Below, one piece after another: positions 1 through 43,295 of a DNA stretch of 64,000 bases. The stretch comes from Haloglycomyces albus DSM 45210. GTDB taxonomy: Bacteria > Actinomycetota > Actinomycetes > Mycobacteriales > Micromonosporaceae. Both the position numbers and the translations under genes were made by a program. Under the pieces are notes generated by a model that was given only the letters and a program-made list of their open reading frames with translations, was not told where the DNA came from and did no database searches. The stretch spans positions 186,001-250,000 of the forward strand of contig NZ_AZUQ01000001.1 of the NCBI RefSeq assembly GCF_000527155.1, in the 5' to 3' direction. The stretch's first letter is position 1. Each line of letters begins with the position of its first letter.

Positions 1-190
1 ACGAGCCAACTGGCGAGCCGCTAACAACGCGCGCAGCGCGTGCGCAGCGGCGGTAGAGCTGGAGAAGAGCTCAGGTTGTTCCAGGTGCTGCAGATTTGCG
101 CGAGGAGGATTCATCGCGACCTTCAGGTCGTGAGAATCCCCCGCAGCGTAAATATGGAGTGCCTGGGGCAAGCTGAGCGGTCACCTACCA
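1..190 (+). ncRNA. Repeated structured RNA element, copy 1
   Basis: This is the first of three good copies of an intergenic element; the others are at 6709 and 42229. Visible helices are GCCGCT (17-22) with AGCGGC (46-51), GAGCT (56-60) with AGCTC (68-72), a ten-pair stem 76-85 with 162-171, and GGATTC (107-112) with GAATCC (134-139) enclosing CGACC (117-121) and GGTCG (126-130). The ten-pair stem and the 5' variable stem need G-U pairs that form only in the + transcript, so I assign the + strand. It ends in GCGGTCACCTACC, running into the 3' end of maf. The left boundary may lie outside the window. Function unknown; an omega-RNA-like guide scaffold is a hypothesis only. Confidence 0.72.
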
Positions 191-775
191 CAAAGTGGTG
201 ATGTTGGTTTCTACTTCCCCTAGCATCTCTCGCAGTAGGGGCATCGACAGCCCGATCACCGTTCCCGGATCACCCTCGATCTTCTTGATGAAGGCCGAAC
301 CGTATCCGTCCAGGGTGAACGAACCGGCGACGTGCAGCGGTTCGCCGGTCTCGACGTAAGCGGCGATCTCGGCGTCGGAGACTTCGGCGAAATGCACCGT
401 AGTAGCGGCGGTCTGGACGATCGTCCGATCCGCCGTCCGGTCGATGAGGCAATGACCGGTGTACAGCACGCCGACTTCGCCACGCATGCGCTTCCAACGC
501 GATACGGCCTCCTCGGGACCGTCCGGCTTACCTAGAATCTCACCGTCGAAGTGAAGAACCGAATCACAGCCCATCACGAACGCGTTGGACGGTGTCTGTG
601 GCGCCACTGCCGTCGCTTTCAATTCGGCTAGGGCCGCAGCCAATTCGTTGGGGTCGGAACCGGCGACTTGGCTTTCGTCGACGCCCGACACCACGACCTC
701 TGGATGGATGCCCGCCGCTTCCAGGAGACGGCGACGGGCTGGGGAGGCGGAAGCCAGAATGAACGGGCGCGTCAT
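185..775 (-). CDS. maf: Maf-family nucleotide pyrophosphatase
   Basis: Maf proteins hydrolyse non-canonical or modified nucleoside triphosphates in the cytoplasm and have been linked to division arrest. The N-terminal SASPARRRLL signature (about residues 9-18), the GCDSV segment near 69, GKPDGPEEA, and the C-terminal GDPGTVIGLSMPLL segment match the family, and the 196-residue length is usual. I chose the ATG at 775 because the protein then begins MTRPFILASASP as in homologues; a longer reading adds an unconserved tail. The start shares one base with the stop of the upstream epsilon-subunit gene, so the two are translationally coupled. Its TAG stop lies in the end of the repeated RNA element. 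Confidence 0.93.
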   Translation of the reverse strand: MTRPFILASASPARRRLLEAAGIHPEVVVSGVDESQVAGSDPNELAAALAELKATAVAPQTPSNAFVMGCDSVLHFDGEILGKPDGPEEAVSRWKRMRGEVGVLYTGHCLIDRTADRTIVQTAATTVHFAEVSDAEIAAYVETGEPLHVAGSFTLDGYGSAFIKKIEGDPGTVIGLSMPLLREMLGEVETNITTLW

Positions 776-4825: not shown

Positions 4826-5347
4826 GTGAGTTTTCCCGATGACGTTCTGGCCCGAAACGAAGAGGTGAAACTCCATACCCGCCAGCATTGGAAAGACGCT
4901 ATCGCCCCAGTGCTGTGGTTTGTCGTATTCCTTTTGATCGCCTCGATTCTGATTTACCTGGTGCCGGAAAGTTGGGGCAGCGCCCAACTATACGTTCGCC
5001 TGGGAATTGTGGCCGTGTTTGTAGGTCTGATCGTATGGCTTTCGGTGCTGCCCTGGATTCGTTGGCAAAGCACCCACTACGTCCTCACCAACCAGAGAGT
5101 CATGTGGCGCGAAGGAATCGCACAACGCGAAAGCACGCACGTCATGCTTAACCGCGTCAATTCGGTGACCTACAGCCAGTCCATTTGGGAACGCCTGTTG
5201 GGATTCGGCACCTTGACCATCTACACGGCCTCCGACGATGTGGACGTGGTTTGGCGTGACATTCCCCGGGTCGACAAGGTCAAGACTCAGCTCTACCAGC
5301 TCATGCAGGACGATAAGCAAGGCGAAGACGTCAGCGAAGCCCGCTAG
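4826..5347 (+). CDS. Membrane protein with bacterial PH domain
   Basis: A 173-residue protein with two transmembrane segments (about 30-52 and 60-80) followed by a cytoplasmic YdbS-type bPH2 domain (about 85-165) containing the family pattern HYVLTNQRVMWREGI and RVNSVTYSQSIWERLLGFGTL. The start is the GTG at 4826, with an excellent GGAGG six bases upstream (4816-4820). Such proteins sit beside pccB/birA in many actinobacteria, but the role is unknown. It is transcribed in the same direction as birA with about 170 bases between, so it probably has its own promoter. Confidence 0.85.
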   Translation: MSFPDDVLARNEEVKLHTRQHWKDAIAPVLWFVVFLLIASILIYLVPESWGSAQLYVRLGIVAVFVGLIVWLSVLPWIRWQSTHYVLTNQRVMWREGIAQRESTHVMLNRVNSVTYSQSIWERLLGFGTLTIYTASDDVDVVWRDIPRVDKVKTQLYQLMQDDKQGEDVSEAR

Positions 5348-5495
5348 GTTCATATGGTCGGTTGTCCGGAACGTGACAGTCGAACATAATGCGTTTCAGG
5401 CGGAGCCGCAGAATTTACGGCTCCGCCCAATCGGCATCCAGGCCCTGTATAAAAACCCGTCGCACTTTTTCCTCTCATGCCGCAAAATCTGTCAT

Positions 5496-6524
5496 ATGCA
5501 TAACATTGACATCGTCCCACTGGATCCCACCGACATCTCTCATATTCGCGGCGTCACCGAATTGACCCATTCAGTCCGAGAGCACAACCTCTCTCCGTGG
5601 CCTCGTTTTCCAGCCGTAATGGAACTGGCAACACGCTTCTTTACCACCCGGTACAATAAGAAGATCGAATACCTTGCCGTCTCTGAGCAATCGGTGGTCG
5701 GTGCGTCCCACGCAGCATTGTCCACTGACGACAATCAGCACCTGGCAATGTTGGAAGTCATGGTTCACCCGGAATACCGACGCCAGGGCATCGGTTCACA
5801 GCTACTGCAAGTGACTGAGAAGCGACTGCAGGATGAAGGACGTCATACCTTCATCGCTAGTTCGATCGAAGGCTACCCCGATGGTGAAGCGATGGACGAA
5901 TCCGGTCTGGCCTTCGCACATCACCACGGCTACCACACGTCTCTCATAGAAGTCCAACGGCGTAACGACCTGTTTGCAGTAGACGAGCGGGAATTGGACG
6001 ATCTCCTCGCCGACGCCTGGAAACATGCCCAAGACTACGAACTCATCCAGTATTACAATTCGGCTCCGGAAGACCTGGTCGAAGGCCTGTGCGTATTGCA
6101 CGAAGGCATGTACACCGATGTTCCGCTCGGCGATACCGATATCCGCGAGGTCGATTTCACGCCCGAACGACTCCGGGCCCGTGAACGCGCCAGCCTCGAA
6201 CGGGGCGTCGTCCAGCCGCACTCGGTCATTCGGCATAAAGCGAGCAAAGAGATCGCCGGATTCAGTGTCATCAATGTGTTTCCCGGGTCCGAAGACATCG
6301 CTTACCAGGATGACACCATCGTCCACAAGACCCATCGTGGCCACCGCCTCGGAACCATCCTGAAAATCGCCAACCAGCGTGAGCTGCGGCGTATTCGCCC
6401 TCAGCTACGTTACATAGACACATGGAACGCCGAGTCGAACGAGCACATGATCGCGATCAACGAAGCCATAGGCTACCGGAAACTGTGTCGCGAACACGAA
6501 TTGCAGAAGAAGCTCAGCGAATAA
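5496..6524 (+). CDS. GNAT N-acetyltransferase with two tandem GNAT domains
   Basis: A 342-residue protein built of two GNAT folds. The N-terminal domain keeps the acetyl-CoA loop as VHPEYRRQGIGSQLL (about 90-104); the C-terminal one has the weaker KTHRGHRLGTILKIAN (about 270-290). Double-GNAT proteins are common in actinobacteria and include the mycothiol enzyme MshD and antibiotic acetyltransferases, but the substrate here cannot be read from the sequence. I start at the ATG at 5496; the open frame extends upstream to 5238 only by overlapping the PH-domain gene. It ends just before a block of repeated RNA elements. Confidence 0.85.
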   Translation: MHNIDIVPLDPTDISHIRGVTELTHSVREHNLSPWPRFPAVMELATRFFTTRYNKKIEYLAVSEQSVVGASHAALSTDDNQHLAMLEVMVHPEYRRQGIGSQLLQVTEKRLQDEGRHTFIASSIEGYPDGEAMDESGLAFAHHHGYHTSLIEVQRRNDLFAVDERELDDLLADAWKHAQDYELIQYYNSAPEDLVEGLCVLHEGMYTDVPLGDTDIREVDFTPERLRARERASLERGVVQPHSVIRHKASKEIAGFSVINVFPGSEDIAYQDDTIVHKTHRGHRLGTILKIANQRELRRIRPQLRYIDTWNAESNEHMIAINEAIGYRKLCREHELQKKLSE

Positions 6525-6619: not shown

Positions 6620-6700
6620 AAGACTAACCAGCGAGCCGTAGGCGCGTGTGCAACGGCGGTAGAGCTGCCTGTGCTCCCTAAAGAGCTGCCGTCACTCCAT
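6620..6700 (+). ncRNA. Degenerate or partial copy of the structured RNA element
   Basis: Immediately before the second full copy, this stretch contains GCCGT (6635-6639) pairing with ACGGC (6653-6657), then GCGGTAGAGCTG as in the other copies, but the rest diverges. The paired change from GCCGC/GCGGC to GCCGT/ACGGC keeps the helix, which supports an RNA structure. It may be a decayed copy, a shortened relative, or half of a tandem duplication. Boundaries are approximate. Confidence 0.5.
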
Positions 6701-6708
6701 CCCCAGGG

Positions 6709-6892
6709 ACGAGCCAACTGTCGAGCCGCTAGCACTGAAAGTGCGACGCGGCGGTAGAGCTGGAGACGAGCTCAGGTTGTTCCAGGTACTTCAGATTTGC
6801 GCGAGGAGGATTCGTCGCGACCTCCAGGTCGTGAGAATCCCCCACAACGCAAATATGGAGTGCCTGGGGCAAGCTGAGCGGTCACCCACCAA
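6709..6892 (+). ncRNA. Repeated structured RNA element, copy 2
   Basis: It aligns with copy 1 along its full length. Differences fall mostly in loops or in the variable 5' stem, where GCACT/AGTGC replaces the GC-rich hairpin of copy 1. Shared helices are GCCGC (6725-6729) with GCGGC (6748-6752), GAGCT/AGCTC around a GGAGACG loop, TTGTTCCAGG with CCTGGGGCAA, and GGATTC/GAATCC enclosing CGACC/GGTCG. The end GCGGTCACCCACC overlaps the last codons and stop of manA on the other strand. The gap between the GNAT gene and manA is filled by this element and the degenerate copy before it. Confidence 0.75.
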
Positions 6893-8036
6893 CATGCGCA
6901 ACGAAGATGGTGCCTGTACCACCTAGTGACATTGGTCCTGATTCGGCTCGGGAGAACGCGGCCTGGCCGGCGCGTAGTTGTTCTTCGCCGTCCTTGTCGA
7001 TGCCCTGTACGGCTCCTTCGACGGCGAGAAGGATACGTGGTCCCGGTAGGTCGATGGTGACTTCGTTTCCGGACAAGGTGACGCGGTGCAGCTGAAAATC
7101 GTCGACGGGGACGGGCCAGGTGCGAACGGGACCGTCGTCCTCGTGAGGTTGTAGCGGATCGGTCATCGCGCGGAAGTCGAGGACGCGCAGTAGTTCGGGT
7201 ACGTCGACCTTCTTACCCGTCAGTCCCCCGCGAAGCACATTGTCACTGGCGGCCATGATCTCCACTCCGAAACCGCGCAGATAGGCGTGCATGTTTCCCG
7301 CCGGCATGTAGACCGCCTCGCCGGGGCTCAGCACCAGGTGGTTGAGGAGGAGACTGACCAATACTCCGGGGTCGTTCGGGTAGGTCTTGGCAAGTTCGAC
7401 CAGCATTTCGAACTCTGGTTCCGTTCGTCCTCCCGCCGCTTTCGCCGCCTGGTCGACCAGGGTGTTGTGGTCGCCCAGGTCGGTCGTGAGGACGTGGGAG
7501 ACGGCTCGCCGCAGGGACCCTTCTCCACTGCGAAGCAGTTGTGCGAGGTCTTTGAGACCTTCGACTTCCAGGGACTCCACATCGCGAGCCGCTTCCAGCG
7601 GATCGCGGAATCCGCAGAGAGCTCGGAATTCGCTCAGGGCGACCAGCAGTTCGGGTTTATGGTTCGAATCCACGTAGTTTCGGGAGGAGAAATCCACTCC
7701 CATGCGACGTTCGCGTACGTAACCGGCGTGCGCCTGGCGCGCGTTCGGGTGCGCTTGCAGGGAGAGGGGACGTGCGGCCGCCAACAGTTTCATCATGAAC
7801 GGCACTCGCGCTCCGTAGCGGTTGAGAACCTCGTCCCCCAGCATTGGCTTAGGGTCGATTTTCACGGCCGTGTCCAGGGAGCGCCCGTCGGCTAGGAACG
7901 ACGGAGCGGTCGGGTGCGCTCCAAACCACTCTTCGGCTTCAGGAAGTTCGGTGGGATACGCACGCCCCTGCATCCGAGCAATATCAACTTGCGATCCCCA
8001 GGCGTAATTGCGGATGACGCCTTCCAGTTCCTGCAC
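6882..8036 (-). CDS. manA: Mannose-6-phosphate isomerase, class I
   Basis: A 384-residue zinc enzyme interconverting fructose-6-phosphate and mannose-6-phosphate, the entry to GDP-mannose for mannolipids and glycoprotein. The zinc ligands are visible as Q94 and H96 in SLQAHPN, E129 in HKPEL, and a later histidine in the PAGNMHAYL segment. Together with manB, manC and the SIS-domain gene in this window it makes a nearly complete mannose-activation route. Its last codons and TGA stop fall in the conserved end of the repeated RNA element. A hairpin separates it from the upstream SIS gene, so it probably has its own promoter. Confidence 0.95.
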   Translation of the reverse strand: MQELEGVIRNYAWGSQVDIARMQGRAYPTELPEAEEWFGAHPTAPSFLADGRSLDTAVKIDPKPMLGDEVLNRYGARVPFMMKLLAAARPLSLQAHPNARQAHAGYVRERRMGVDFSSRNYVDSNHKPELLVALSEFRALCGFRDPLEAARDVESLEVEGLKDLAQLLRSGEGSLRRAVSHVLTTDLGDHNTLVDQAAKAAGGRTEPEFEMLVELAKTYPNDPGVLVSLLLNHLVLSPGEAVYMPAGNMHAYLRGFGVEIMAASDNVLRGGLTGKKVDVPELLRVLDFRAMTDPLQPHEDDGPVRTWPVPVDDFQLHRVTLSGNEVTIDLPGPRILLAVEGAVQGIDKDGEEQLRAGQAAFSRAESGPMSLGGTGTIFVAHVGG

Positions 8037-39252: not shown

Positions 39253-40509
39253 CTACGGGTGGGTTACTGCTTCGACGCGCTGTGCCGGGACTGTCCCGGT
39301 CTTACCTGCGCTCCACGAGTCGTTTTGGGTGTCCGCAGGTCCTGCGGCCACCAGACGCCTACCTTCGCGCCTAATGTTGATTTCAGCGTTGGCATCCCGG
39401 TCGTGGGACGCCCCGCATCCGCACTCCCACCGGCGGACGGCTAGGCCTTCCAGGCCGGTCGGTCCCGTCAAGGCCCCGCAGTCGGAGCACAGGCGGGTGG
39501 AGGGGAAGAACCGGTCCACCGTCACAAACGTCCGTCCGGTCCGCTGGGATTTCGATTCCAGGCGGGAGAGGAACATCCCGAACGCCGCGTCGTGGACCGA
39601 CTTGGACATACGGGACCGCTGCAACCCCTGAACGTTGAGGTCTTCTGCATAGACAGCTTGGTTCTCGCTGACGATGCGGTGGACCTGTTTGTTTATCCAG
39701 TCGCTGCGGGAGTTTTTGATCTTTTCGTGGACCTTCGCCACACGGAGGCGTGCTTTGGCCCGGTTGTTCGAGCCTTTCTGTTTGCGCGACAGTGACCGCT
39801 GTGCCTTCCTGAGTTTCCGCTCCAGGCGTGTGAAGAACTTCGGGTTGTCGATAGTCTTGCCGCCACGCAACACCGCGAAGTCCTTCAACCCCAGGTCGAT
39901 CCCTGTCTCAGCGTCGTCGGGCAACGGATCGTGGAGGTCGACGCCGTCGTCGGCGGTGACCACGAACGACGCAAAGTACTTGCCCGTCGGGGTTTTGATG
40001 ACCGTGACGCTGGACGGGTCGGAGGGAAGTTCTCTGCTCCAGGCGACCGTGACGTCTCCGATCTTGGGCAGCCGCAGCCGCCCATTGCCAAGTACGCGGA
40101 ACCGGGCGGCTTTGGTGAACCGAGCCGTCTGGGTGTTCGACCGGCGTTTCCACCGCGGTGGGCCGACACCCGGCCCCTGTCGCCGTCCGGTGAGAGAATC
40201 GAAGAAGTTCTTATACGCCCGGTCGCAGTCCCGCAGCGCCTGCTGCAGCACGACTGCCGAGACCTCGGCCAGCCACTCGCGTTCGGGGGTTTTCTTCGCC
40301 TCGGTAATCAGCGTCTTCGCCAGCAACACCGACGACGGATACTTCCTCCCGGCGGCGTAGGCCGCTCTCCGGGCCGCGATGGCATCGTTGTGCACCGTCC
40401 GTACACACCCGAACGTCCGCGCGAGCTGCCGCCGCTGCGGGGCCGTCGGATAGAGACGAAACCGGTACCTCAAATGCACAAGAGAAAGCGTAACGGGAAC
40501 GTCTGACAT
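39253..40509 (-). CDS. tnpB: TnpB-family RNA-guided nuclease (IS200/IS605 or IS607 type), orphan
   Basis: A 418-residue TnpB. The RuvC-like catalytic residues are D205 (TGIDLGLKD), E289 (VYAEDLNVQGL) and D372 (SHDRDANAEINI). The zinc finger has C341, C344, C363 and C365 (CSDCG...CGCG). The N-terminal helix-turn-helix region begins LRYRFRLYPTAPQRRQL. Nothing is broken, so it may be active. I use the ATG at 40509; a GTG at 40479 is possible. No TnpA transposase is adjacent. TnpB cuts DNA guided by an RNA made from the element's right end and favours element retention. Confidence 0.9.
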   Translation of the reverse strand: MSDVPVTLSLVHLRYRFRLYPTAPQRRQLARTFGCVRTVHNDAIAARRAAYAAGRKYPSSVLLAKTLITEAKKTPEREWLAEVSAVVLQQALRDCDRAYKNFFDSLTGRRQGPGVGPPRWKRRSNTQTARFTKAARFRVLGNGRLRLPKIGDVTVAWSRELPSDPSSVTVIKTPTGKYFASFVVTADDGVDLHDPLPDDAETGIDLGLKDFAVLRGGKTIDNPKFFTRLERKLRKAQRSLSRKQKGSNNRAKARLRVAKVHEKIKNSRSDWINKQVHRIVSENQAVYAEDLNVQGLQRSRMSKSVHDAAFGMFLSRLESKSQRTGRTFVTVDRFFPSTRLCSDCGALTGPTGLEGLAVRRWECGCGASHDRDANAEINIRREGRRLVAAGPADTQNDSWSAGKTGTVPAQRVEAVTHP

Positions 40510-40887
40510 AGCTATTGCAAACCAACCAGCCTCCAGAAAGGCGCTACACCTCCACCCTAAAGGGAGCACTGCGCCTGAAAACGGTAGCGGTATCGTCCCG
40601 TCAGTGTTCGCGAGTTGGCCTCCTCCTCACGGCTAAAAGTCGGGGGAGTCCAATCCAGTATTCCGAGAACTTCGGCACGAACCCAAATCATCCTATGACC
40701 GGTTCATCGGTCAACCTGTTTTGATAACAGAGTGCGATTATTAAGTGCCCCATAAACATCAACAGCCCAAACATTTAATATTCGTAATGCATTCCACCGT
40801 AGATAATCCTCACGCACTATGCGAGACTTTATCTCGTGTGTGTCAAGTCGACACGCAGTTTCAGGAGTCCTATTCAAAAGGGGATCT
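40510..40887. other. Intergenic region between tnpB and livK
   Basis: About 380 bases. The part near tnpB has an imperfect hairpin (about 40620-40650, CCTCCTCACGGC with GTCGGGGGAG), which could be a left end or the remnant right end of another IS605-like element. The part from 40730 on is AT-rich and should hold the liv operon promoter; TAGATAAT at 40799 is a possible -10. Confidence 0.4.
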
Positions 40888-42060
40888 ATGCGACTCAAAG
40901 CTGCCGGATTGGCGGCGTCAACATTGCTTTTGACAGCCGCTTGTGTCCAAGAATCATCCGGCCCTGAGAAATCCGACGACGCCCTGGTCGGTTCGGGGTC
41001 GGGTTCCAATTGCAACATCGATCGAGTCGTCCGGGTCGGTGCCACACTGAGCCTCACCGGTGGCGCCGCTTTCGCGGGCGAGTACCAGCAGCAAGGCCTC
41101 CAGCTGGCCATCGACGAACTGAATCAAGAGTCCGGAGTCTCGTACGAATTGGTCGTCGAGGACGACGAGACGGATGTCCAAAGTGGTCTTACTGCCTTCG
41201 AGAAGCTCATCGAGCGCGATGAGGTCAGTGCGTTGATCGGCCCAACTTTGTCCAATGTAGCCTTTTCCACCTATGAGGAATCCCAGGACGCCGGGGTTCC
41301 CACCATCGGTATTTCCACCACCGCGAACGGAATTCCCGAAATCGGCGACTACATCTACCGCGTCTCCCTCCCCGAGGAGGTCGCACTCGCCGAGAGCATC
41401 CCGGCTTCTTACGATGCCCTTGACTATAAAGACGTCGCGGTCATGTACGACAACGAAGACGAGTTCACCGCCTCCGCCTATGAGTCCATGATGCTTGAAC
41501 TCGAACGTCTTGACGTGGATCTCGTTTCCGAGGAAACCTTCCCCACCGATGAAAGCGACTTCCGTTCTCAGTTGACTAAAGTGGCGGAAACCGAACCTGA
41601 CGTACTCGTCCTGTCCGCGCTTCCGGCCGCCACGGCACCATTGGTTAAGCAGGCACGTGAAATCGGCTTGGACGTCCCCATCGTGGGTGGTAACGCGTTC
41701 AACTCCCCGGTCATGATCGACAACCTCGGCGACAGCGCCGAAGGCCTCATCGTGGGCGGCGCCTGGAGCTCGTCGGCCATGACGACGGGTAACCAGGAGT
41801 TCATGGACTCGTTTGAACAGACGTACGACCGTGCTCCCGACCAGTTCGCGGCGCAGGCCTACACTTCCGCTCACGTCCTGGACGCGGCCATCCGTGACAA
41901 CTGTGACGCCAACCGTTCGGCGATCCGCGAGGCTCTGGGACGCATCGACGCCCACGAAACCGTTCTCGGACCCGTTACCCTGGCTCCGCACGGCGAAATC
42001 ACCCAGGACGCGTTCGTTCAGATCATTAAGGACGGAGAATTCACTCCGATCGGCGAGTAA
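40888..42060 (+). CDS. livK: Branched-chain amino acid ABC transporter substrate-binding lipoprotein
   Basis: A 390-residue type I periplasmic-binding-fold protein with a lipoprotein signal (lipobox LLTAAC). It contains GATLSLTGGAAFAGEYQQQGLQLAIDELN, the usual ligand-binding start, and a C-terminal lobe with AAQAYTSAHVLDAAI. It would present leucine, isoleucine or valine (or another amide or amino acid) to LivH/LivM. The ATG at 40888 has AAGGGG upstream; a start at 40819 would lose the signal. It heads the liv operon, with a 358-base gap containing a hairpin and the third copy of the RNA element before livH. Confidence 0.92.
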   Translation: MRLKAAGLAASTLLLTAACVQESSGPEKSDDALVGSGSGSNCNIDRVVRVGATLSLTGGAAFAGEYQQQGLQLAIDELNQESGVSYELVVEDDETDVQSGLTAFEKLIERDEVSALIGPTLSNVAFSTYEESQDAGVPTIGISTTANGIPEIGDYIYRVSLPEEVALAESIPASYDALDYKDVAVMYDNEDEFTASAYESMMLELERLDVDLVSEETFPTDESDFRSQLTKVAETEPDVLVLSALPAATAPLVKQAREIGLDVPIVGGNAFNSPVMIDNLGDSAEGLIVGGAWSSSAMTTGNQEFMDSFEQTYDRAPDQFAAQAYTSAHVLDAAIRDNCDANRSAIREALGRIDAHETVLGPVTLAPHGEITQDAFVQIIKDGEFTPIGE

Positions 42061-42228: not shown

Positions 42229-42391
42229 AAGCCGCGAGCGTAGCGATGCGGCGGTTGAGCTGGAGAGGAGCTCAGGTGCCGCACGGTACGTCGAACAGGG
42301 TTGTTCGCAGGTTCCAGGCGTGCTCCAACACGTCGGGTTCTACGAAGGACGCTGGACAACGTGCTGTGCGGGAGCTGAGCGGTCACCCACC
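42229..42391 (+). ncRNA. Repeated structured RNA element, copy 3
   Basis: It shares the ends and core blocks with copies 1 and 2: GCCGC (42231-42235) with GCGGC (42248-42252), GAGCT/AGCTC around GGAGAGG, CTCAGG, and the terminal GAGCTGAGCGGTCACCCACC. The interior differs: the long stem is made by CCGCAC (42279-42284) with GTGCGG (42366-42371), where copies 1 and 2 use an unrelated pair. It sits inside the liv operon, 30 bases before livH, in the same orientation. Confidence 0.7.
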
Positions 42392-42419
42392 CACAAAAAC
42401 CTAGTGAGACAACCATCCT

Positions 42420-43295
42420 ATGTTGGAACAAATCACCAACGGCCTTTTCACAGGCTCTATTTACGCGCTATTCGCCATTGGATTCACCCTGGTATTCGGT
42501 ATCCTTCGGCAGCTCAATCTGGCGCACGCCTCGATCTTCACCGCCGGTGCGTTCATTGCCATCGGACTCATCGACGGGGGTACTCCGGCCTGGTTGACCT
42601 TCGTATTGGTCGCCATCGCCGGTGTGATCGTGGGACTGTGCCTGGAGTTCGTCGCCTTCCGACCCCTCACGGGTCGACCGGACGAACACTTTGCGGGACT
42701 GATTTCCTCCGTCGCCTTCGGAGGAATGGTCATTGCCCTGCTGCGTGCCTACTTCGGTTCCGAACCACGCAGCATTCCCGCCGATACCTTGCCCGCCACG
42801 AACTGGGAGTTCGCCGGGATTACCGTCACCTTCGTGCAGGTGCTGATTTTGACGGTATCGCTGGTGCTCATGCTGGCCCTCGCCTGGCTGGTCGGGCGCA
42901 CCACCTTCGGTAGCGCCATGCGTGCGGTCGCCGAGAACCCCGATGCGGCTCGCATTCTGGGGGTCAACGTCAAACAGGTCACCGCCTCCACGTATGCCCT
43001 GTCGTCGGCTCTGGGAGCCACCGCCGGAGTGCTCATGGCGGTGAACGTGGGGCAGGCCAATTTGGAAATGGGCCTGTCGATCGAATTGACCGGTTTCGCC
43101 GTCATCATTCTCGGCGGGCTCGGCTCGCTCTGGGGTGCGATGACGGCCGGTCTGGTGCTCGGCCTGGCCGAAACGTTTACCGTGCAGTACATCGATTCTT
43201 CCTGGAAAGACGTCGTTGCCTTCGGTCTACTCTTCGCCATTCTCCTATTCCGCCCTCAAGGCCTGTTCGGCTCGATGAAAACCCGGGAGGTGTAA
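42420..43295 (+). CDS. livH: Branched-chain amino acid ABC transporter permease LivH
   Basis: A 291-residue permease with about eight membrane helices. It has the typical start LEQITNGLFTGSIYALFAIGFTLVFGILRQLNLAH and the conserved cytoplasmic loop with GSAMRAVAENPDAARILGVNVKQV that contacts the ATPases. It pairs with the LivM part of the next gene, whose ATG follows its stop immediately. It is separated from livK by a hairpin and the RNA element, so part of its expression may come from readthrough. Confidence 0.93.
   Translation: MLEQITNGLFTGSIYALFAIGFTLVFGILRQLNLAHASIFTAGAFIAIGLIDGGTPAWLTFVLVAIAGVIVGLCLEFVAFRPLTGRPDEHFAGLISSVAFGGMVIALLRAYFGSEPRSIPADTLPATNWEFAGITVTFVQVLILTVSLVLMLALAWLVGRTTFGSAMRAVAENPDAARILGVNVKQVTASTYALSSALGATAGVLMAVNVGQANLEMGLSIELTGFAVIILGGLGSLWGAMTAGLVLGLAETFTVQYIDSSWKDVVAFGLLFAILLFRPQGLFGSMKTREV

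Follow-up and report, generated by a model that had tools for sequence, protein, structure and literature searches.

REPs are often restricted to a single species and occupy sites downstream of genes, where the adjoining ORFs converge or run in the same direction; their stems carry alternative complementary residues with G-T pairs, and their ends often give the flanking ORFs a stop codon (PMC3733652). The GTAG REP families described there come from the Proteobacteria, Cyanobacteria, Chloroflexi, and the PVC group, and the Actinobacteria are unmentioned (PMC3733652). Here, we describe an actinobacterial element that, like the REP/BIME elements mobilized by RAYT (TnpA-REP) and tagged with GTAG or CGTC (PMC3733652, PMC8266576, PMC6006769), is species-restricted, extragenic, and hairpin-forming. 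It shares with REPs a location mostly downstream of genes, between ORFs that converge or point the same way, the alternative complementary stems, the wobble pairs, the stop-supplying ends, and a GTAG sequence 5′ of the hairpin, and the many extragenic palindromic copies per genome that define REPs have their counterpart in its 55 copies. However, a REP is a single hairpin of 20 to 40 bp with GTAG or GGAG at its foot, whereas the element is ~180 nt long with a ~110-nt hairpin and GTAG ~12 nt away; it also differs in having modular arrays and three swappable long hairpins and in residing in a genome in which no Y1/RAYT gene was found. The element works like a REP or MITE, but its size, the spacing between GTAG and the hairpin foot, and the missing RAYT place it outside the RAYT-REP family.

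Bacterial MITEs such as Correia/NEMIS, ERIC, and RUP (PMC2229807) are likewise non-autonomous, 100 to 200 bp long, and mostly intergenic, and form long stem-loops as RNA, but the element differs from them in having neither terminal inverted repeats nor TA termini nor a detected target duplication, and in being strand-asymmetric. With IS200/IS605 ends and TnpB omega-RNA it shares a hairpin near a fixed 3′ end, the lack of target duplication, and asymmetry of the insertion strand, although Y1 transposase was not found and the genome's own TnpB 3′ ends are different. Mycobacterial MIRU repeats are also actinobacterial, occur as tandem units, and have TGA stop codons at their junctions, all of which the element resembles; it differs from MIRUs, to which we liken it by description only, in size and in its strong strand-specific fold. 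The explanation that we favor, by a little over even chances, is that the element is non-autonomous and REP/MITE-like, traveled in the form of a folded single strand, and came to rest at stop codons.

Three Copies in a 64-kb Window

The window, the whole 64-kb stretch of DNA that was analyzed, comprises bases 186001 to 250000 of a 3,535,419-base (3.5-Mb) actinobacterial chromosome. Its copies of the element and the genes beside them are as follows (window coordinates):

1..190, + strand: copy 1, type I hairpin; hp1 ~15-51, B unit 54-185, tail 179-190
185..775, − strand: Maf-family nucleotide pyrophosphatase gene (PF02545, 1e-54; gene call)
5238..6524, + strand: GNAT acetyltransferase gene (PF00583), left neighbor of copy 2, convergent with manA
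~6630..6708, + strand: short A module, comprising hp1 and a short hp2, arranged in tandem with copy 2 on its left side (from sequence; nhmmer A-module score 47)
6709..6892, + strand: copy 2, type I hairpin; hp1 ~6717-6754, B unit 6755-6886, tail GGTCACCCACC from 6880
6882..8036, − strand: manA, mannose-6-phosphate isomerase (TIGR00218, 4e-67)
39253..40569, − strand: TnpB gene, weighed as a possible partner (NF040570, 3e-94); its own 3′ end is unlike the element
40819..42060, + strand: ABC transporter substrate-binding protein gene, left neighbor of copy 3 (PF13458, 2e-51)
42229..42393, + strand: copy 3, type III hairpin; hp1 ~42230-42254, B unit 42255-42387, tail to ~42393
42420..43295, + strand: ABC transporter permease gene (branched-chain/urea type), right neighbor of copy 3 on the same strand (PF02653, 4e-44)

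The original prediction of three copies of a structured element in this window was confirmed with a covariance model, which found all three on the + strand with the architecture described. Copy 1 matched the model at 54-185 (146.3 bits), copy 2 at 6755-6886 (143.8 bits), and copy 3 at 42255-42387 (100.5 bits), and each folds far better than shuffled sequence, with z scores of −8.8, −5.6, and −5.1, respectively. Copy 1 is truncated by the window start, so that its upstream modules fall outside the window; by BLAST this copy spans genome positions 185992-186190. The TAG stop codon of the Maf-family gene (185-187) falls inside the copy 1 tail, and the TGA stop codon of manA (6882-6884) is part of the GGTGACC end of copy 2. 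The site of copy 3 is flanked by the substrate-binding and permease genes of a branched-chain-type ABC transporter. The copies had been thought always intergenic and always on the + strand: the first does not hold for copy 2, the last bases of which are the manA stop codon, and the second is true of the window but not of the genome, as the following counts show.

Copy Number and Phylogenetic Range

A BLAST search of the genome with copy 2 returned 55 matching stretches, well beyond the three in the window, with ~40 copies among them at identities of mostly 75 to 96%. A covariance model built from the repeats (R1; 132 positions, 49 pairs) found at E < 0.01 a total of 55 distinct copies in the same genome, 29 on the + strand and 26 on the − strand, when overlapping matches on opposite strands were counted once; the weakest, at 315390, has an E value of 0.002. 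The wide spread that had been surmised from the window is thus real within this genome, and it ends there among the relatives searched: BLAST of 60 relatives gave no match to the element, and the covariance model found no copies in 300 genomes from the bacterial family to which the organism belongs (44 genera, including its own), which were scored at their best candidates only, so that very diverged relatives may escape detection. A laxer model search of 38 relatives produced only two weak matches (E = 0.23 and 0.72), which we read as chance. A scan of 84,980 species genomes for the conserved 18-base scaffold pattern gave nine single matches, each in an unrelated organism, which is approximately what chance would produce; viral contigs gave four single matches. 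Plasmid and phage searches detected no element.

Rfam models, including the HEARO model that the original prediction had in mind, gave nothing for the whole window, its three copies included, at the gathering threshold, nothing for copy 2 at E ≤ 10, and nothing plausible for full-length copies in four loci at the loose threshold of E ≤ 5, and we found no description of this element family in the literature. The element is so far known from one lineage only; as this organism alone represents its genus among the searched genomes, the family may extend across the whole genus.

Modular Anatomy and Hairpin Types

Read from left to right on its own strand, the element consists of zero to four tandem A modules followed by one B unit. 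An A module is ~85 to 100 nt long and contains hp1 and, in the best examples, a short hairpin, GGTAGAGCTGCCTGTG...GAGCTCTACC. The B unit contains, in order, hp1, the conserved sequence GGTAGAGCTGGAGARGAG, the ~110-nt hairpin, and the end CGGTCACC, which is often followed by CACCAACCAAA. The stem of hp1 is GAGCCGC...GCGGC or GAGCTTC...GAAGC, i.e., alternative complementary stems, and the conserved GTAG lies 5′ of the hairpin (GGTAGAGCT), separated from the base of the long hairpin by ~12 nt. Mean scores of the A modules drop with distance from the B unit (45, 33, 26, and 10), and the left ends of the element are ragged because old modules decay. What had been taken for a short variable 5′ part on a fixed scaffold is therefore a tandem series of decaying modules, with no guide. 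At genome positions 1488123-1488203 the tail GAGCGGTCACCCACC is duplicated, occurring four times with a 22-bp period.

The long hairpin occurs as three sequence types on one scaffold. Type I is found in most copies; type II (GCGAATTCGTGCG...) is found in approximately nine copies and has wholly different basal stems; and type III is found in approximately thirteen, including copy 3 of the window. The B unit is 132 or 133 nt long across all three types, except in two type III copies with an inner deletion and a few slightly departing copies.

Covariation and Strand Asymmetry

On its own (+) strand, the element folds into the small hairpin hp1 followed by the long hairpin, which is paired over most of its length and includes conserved wobble pairs. 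In an alignment of 35 sequences, 92.6% of cells are paired compared with 80.6% after shuffling, a figure that is favored by the structure having been derived from the same 35 sequences; the double changes and pair types are better evidence. Changes on both sides are seen in 32 of the 49 pairs of the long-hairpin structure in these sequences, and the covariation score is 0.357, compared with 0.136 for shuffled alignments and 0.05 to 0.09 when the structure is shifted by one to three columns. Covariation of this strength upholds the view that the repeats form a real nucleic acid structure and are more than a plain DNA repeat.

The claim that G-U pairs work on one strand only was also borne out. 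A tandem U-G/G-U step is conserved in 34 and 32 of the 35 sequences, respectively, in all three types; strand-symmetric scoring counted 258 G-U against 79 A-C; and per column, any G-U was present in 23 pairs and any A-C in 7 (p = 0.005). Folded as RNA, the + strand is more stable than its complement in 53 of 55 copies (−79 versus −63 kcal/mol). Since the copies are related, neither the strand-stability nor the wobble counts can be treated as independent observations, but the bias appears in each of the three types and points to selection acting on the + strand, either as RNA or as single-stranded DNA.

A few copies look corrected or internally inverted (1098038, 3212246, and 3407962). Two of them, at genome positions 3407962-3408093 and 3212246-3212378, score on both strands because the interior of the hairpin is an exact inversion or nearly a perfect palindrome, a sign of template switching or of inversion within the hairpin.

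Placement at Stop Codons

Genes flanking the 55 copies were called by a codon-usage script trained on the window. The right neighbor is an opposite-strand gene in 40 copies (p = 0.0004 against a window-derived baseline of 49%), and in 29 copies the stop codon of this facing gene lies between −12 and +7 nt from the GGTCACC right end. In 12 copies the stop codon of the facing gene is the TGA of the element's own GGTGACC. Many of the genes beside the copies look like housekeeping genes. The assignments of Maf and ManA rest on profile matches and those of isocitrate dehydrogenase, RecR, UDP-glucose dehydrogenase, and L18 on solved structures of relatives; others we take, from reading their sequences, to be DnaA, RecN, ClpC, citrate synthase, a sigma factor, thioredoxins, and polynucleotide phosphorylase. 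Compared with these structures, RecR and L18 terminate at the very last residue, isocitrate dehydrogenase ends within approximately one residue of it, and UDP-glucose dehydrogenase ends no more than four residues from the end of the chain. The match of these four termini to those of relatives indicates that the genes are intact and that the element abuts the native stop codon.

A reading frame enters the element by 63 nt in the polynucleotide phosphorylase-like gene and by 115 nt in the gene at 1967281. In the former (genome 2350107-2352524), the element would add ~20 C-terminal residues. By eye, the right ends of copies 2838317-2838448 and 1344712-1344843 abut, in place of a stop codon, an apparent terminator U-tract of an opposite-strand transcript, and copy 2838317-2838448 lies shortly before a TPP riboswitch (positions 1796-1900 of its scanned locus).

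No target-site duplication was found: matches between right and left flanks averaged 5.04, compared with 5.08 in the permuted control. Inspection also revealed no terminal inverted repeats, and nothing on the left side corresponds to the GGTGACC end. Assuming that oriC lies at dnaA, the element strand is opposite to fork direction in 39 of 55 copies, a count that is confounded by gene orientation.

The main rival to a mobile element is a 3′-UTR role, in which a cis-acting 3′-end element terminates, processes, or stabilizes the transcript of the gene that it touches, or blocks antisense read-through, and has been kept for that. This reading, which we regard as a minority possibility, would account for the 29 copies at or near a facing stop codon, for a hairpin that is very stable on both strands, and for the many neighbors that read as housekeeping genes. 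However, the wobble pairs favor the strand antisense to the touching gene, which would thus transcribe the weaker-folding strand; a facing gene is absent at 15 copies, several others are 100 to 500 nt from one, and many copies away from stop codons are equally well conserved. Both the strand preference and the conservation away from stop codons argue against the simplest 3′-UTR role. Separate terminator-like hairpins are, moreover, still visible by eye beside many copies, and the element is absent from the 300 family genomes, which are expected to share these housekeeping genes.

Candidate Machinery in the Genome

Profile searches of the genome for an enzyme that could move the element gave no match to Y1 transposase/RAYT (PF01797), with the control positive in five genomes, and none to reverse transcriptase (PF00078), with the control positive in three, although a degenerate or atypical reverse transcriptase could escape. 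No Y2 transposase (IS91-type) was found, but the control was silent, and the IscB N-terminal domain (PF14239) had no match either in this genome or in any control genome. The tyrosine-recombinase profile PF00589 matches six ORFs, all of them more than 10 kb from any listed copy, and visual inspection of the base of the hairpin showed no integron attC boxes (GTTRRRY/RYYYAAC). A longer autonomous relative of the element was not found. A retron or group II intron was rejected, as reverse transcriptase was not found, and a REP mobilized by Y1-RAYT was rejected for want of a Y1 gene.

The genome encodes five TnpB genes, one in the window (39253-40569, − strand) and the others at genome positions 1508041, 3052731, 3168399, and 883746. 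They fall into two sequence groups with the conserved 3′ ends GGGGAGGARGTCAA and GGGAAACGAGGAYGTCAA, and downstream of all five is an ending ...GAGGAGGTCAA or similar, without the element scaffold. With no Y1 TnpA found, these are orphan TnpBs, perhaps retained or domesticated. A tRNA-like gene was noted by eye shortly past the 3′ end of the TnpB gene at 3168399. As the element scaffold is absent from the 3′ ends of the five tnpB genes, a TnpB guide RNA (omega/reRNA) was rejected. The omega-RNA scaffold of HEARO/IscB type put forward in the original prediction also finds no backing: there is no Rfam match, the TnpB 3′ ends are different, and the search for IscB was empty, albeit with a silent control.

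Discussion

We infer mobility, insertion at stop codons, and growth of arrays at the right end from static copies, and transcription likewise. A non-autonomous REP/MITE-like element of this kind would have spread as a folded single strand, in the form of either lagging-strand DNA or an RNA copy, would be recognized through its hairpin, and would be attached to the target through its 3′ end (...CGGTCA). Where it entered at TGA or another stop codon, the insertion may have persisted because it provided or retained the stop. Subsequent rounds would have added new units at the same end, and older units would have lost the long hairpin and decayed. The enzyme may have been lost, may be encoded elsewhere, or may be of neither the Y1 nor the reverse-transcriptase kind. 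A bolder form of this explanation, which we put forward tentatively and hold to be distinctly less probable, is a new class of single-strand mobile element in which a scaffold carries exchangeable long hairpins, is moved by an enzyme of non-Y1, non-reverse-transcriptase type, targets stop codons, and grows in arrays at the gene end.

A DNA repeat in which quasi-palindrome correction by template switching, and not structural selection, keeps the hairpins self-complementary is improbable: the perfected or internally inverted palindromes described above are what such correction would leave, but most copies share the same one-strand wobble imperfections, which correction alone would erase, and correction alone would give no strand bias. 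Less probable still is a trans-acting structured RNA family (guide or scaffold) served by a protein encoded elsewhere, such as TnpB or an IscB-like nuclease, for although the strand-specific structure, the fixed 3′ scaffold end followed by a variable flank, and the presence of five TnpB genes where no Y1 TnpA was found would suit it, the TnpB genes bear their own, different 3′ ends, neither an Rfam omega-RNA match nor IscB (control silent) was found, and the last codons of an intact opposite-strand gene often make up the flank past the element.

The REP/MITE-like element proposed here belongs to a large and well-behaved family, with 55 copies, strong covariation, and a sharp right end, and it makes the origin of bacterial extragenic hairpin repeats testable in an organism with none of the known REP transposases among the genes found. 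Its tight fit to the stop codons of housekeeping genes is unusual and yields a clear targeting prediction. If the element is an RNA, it would represent a structured family absent from Rfam.
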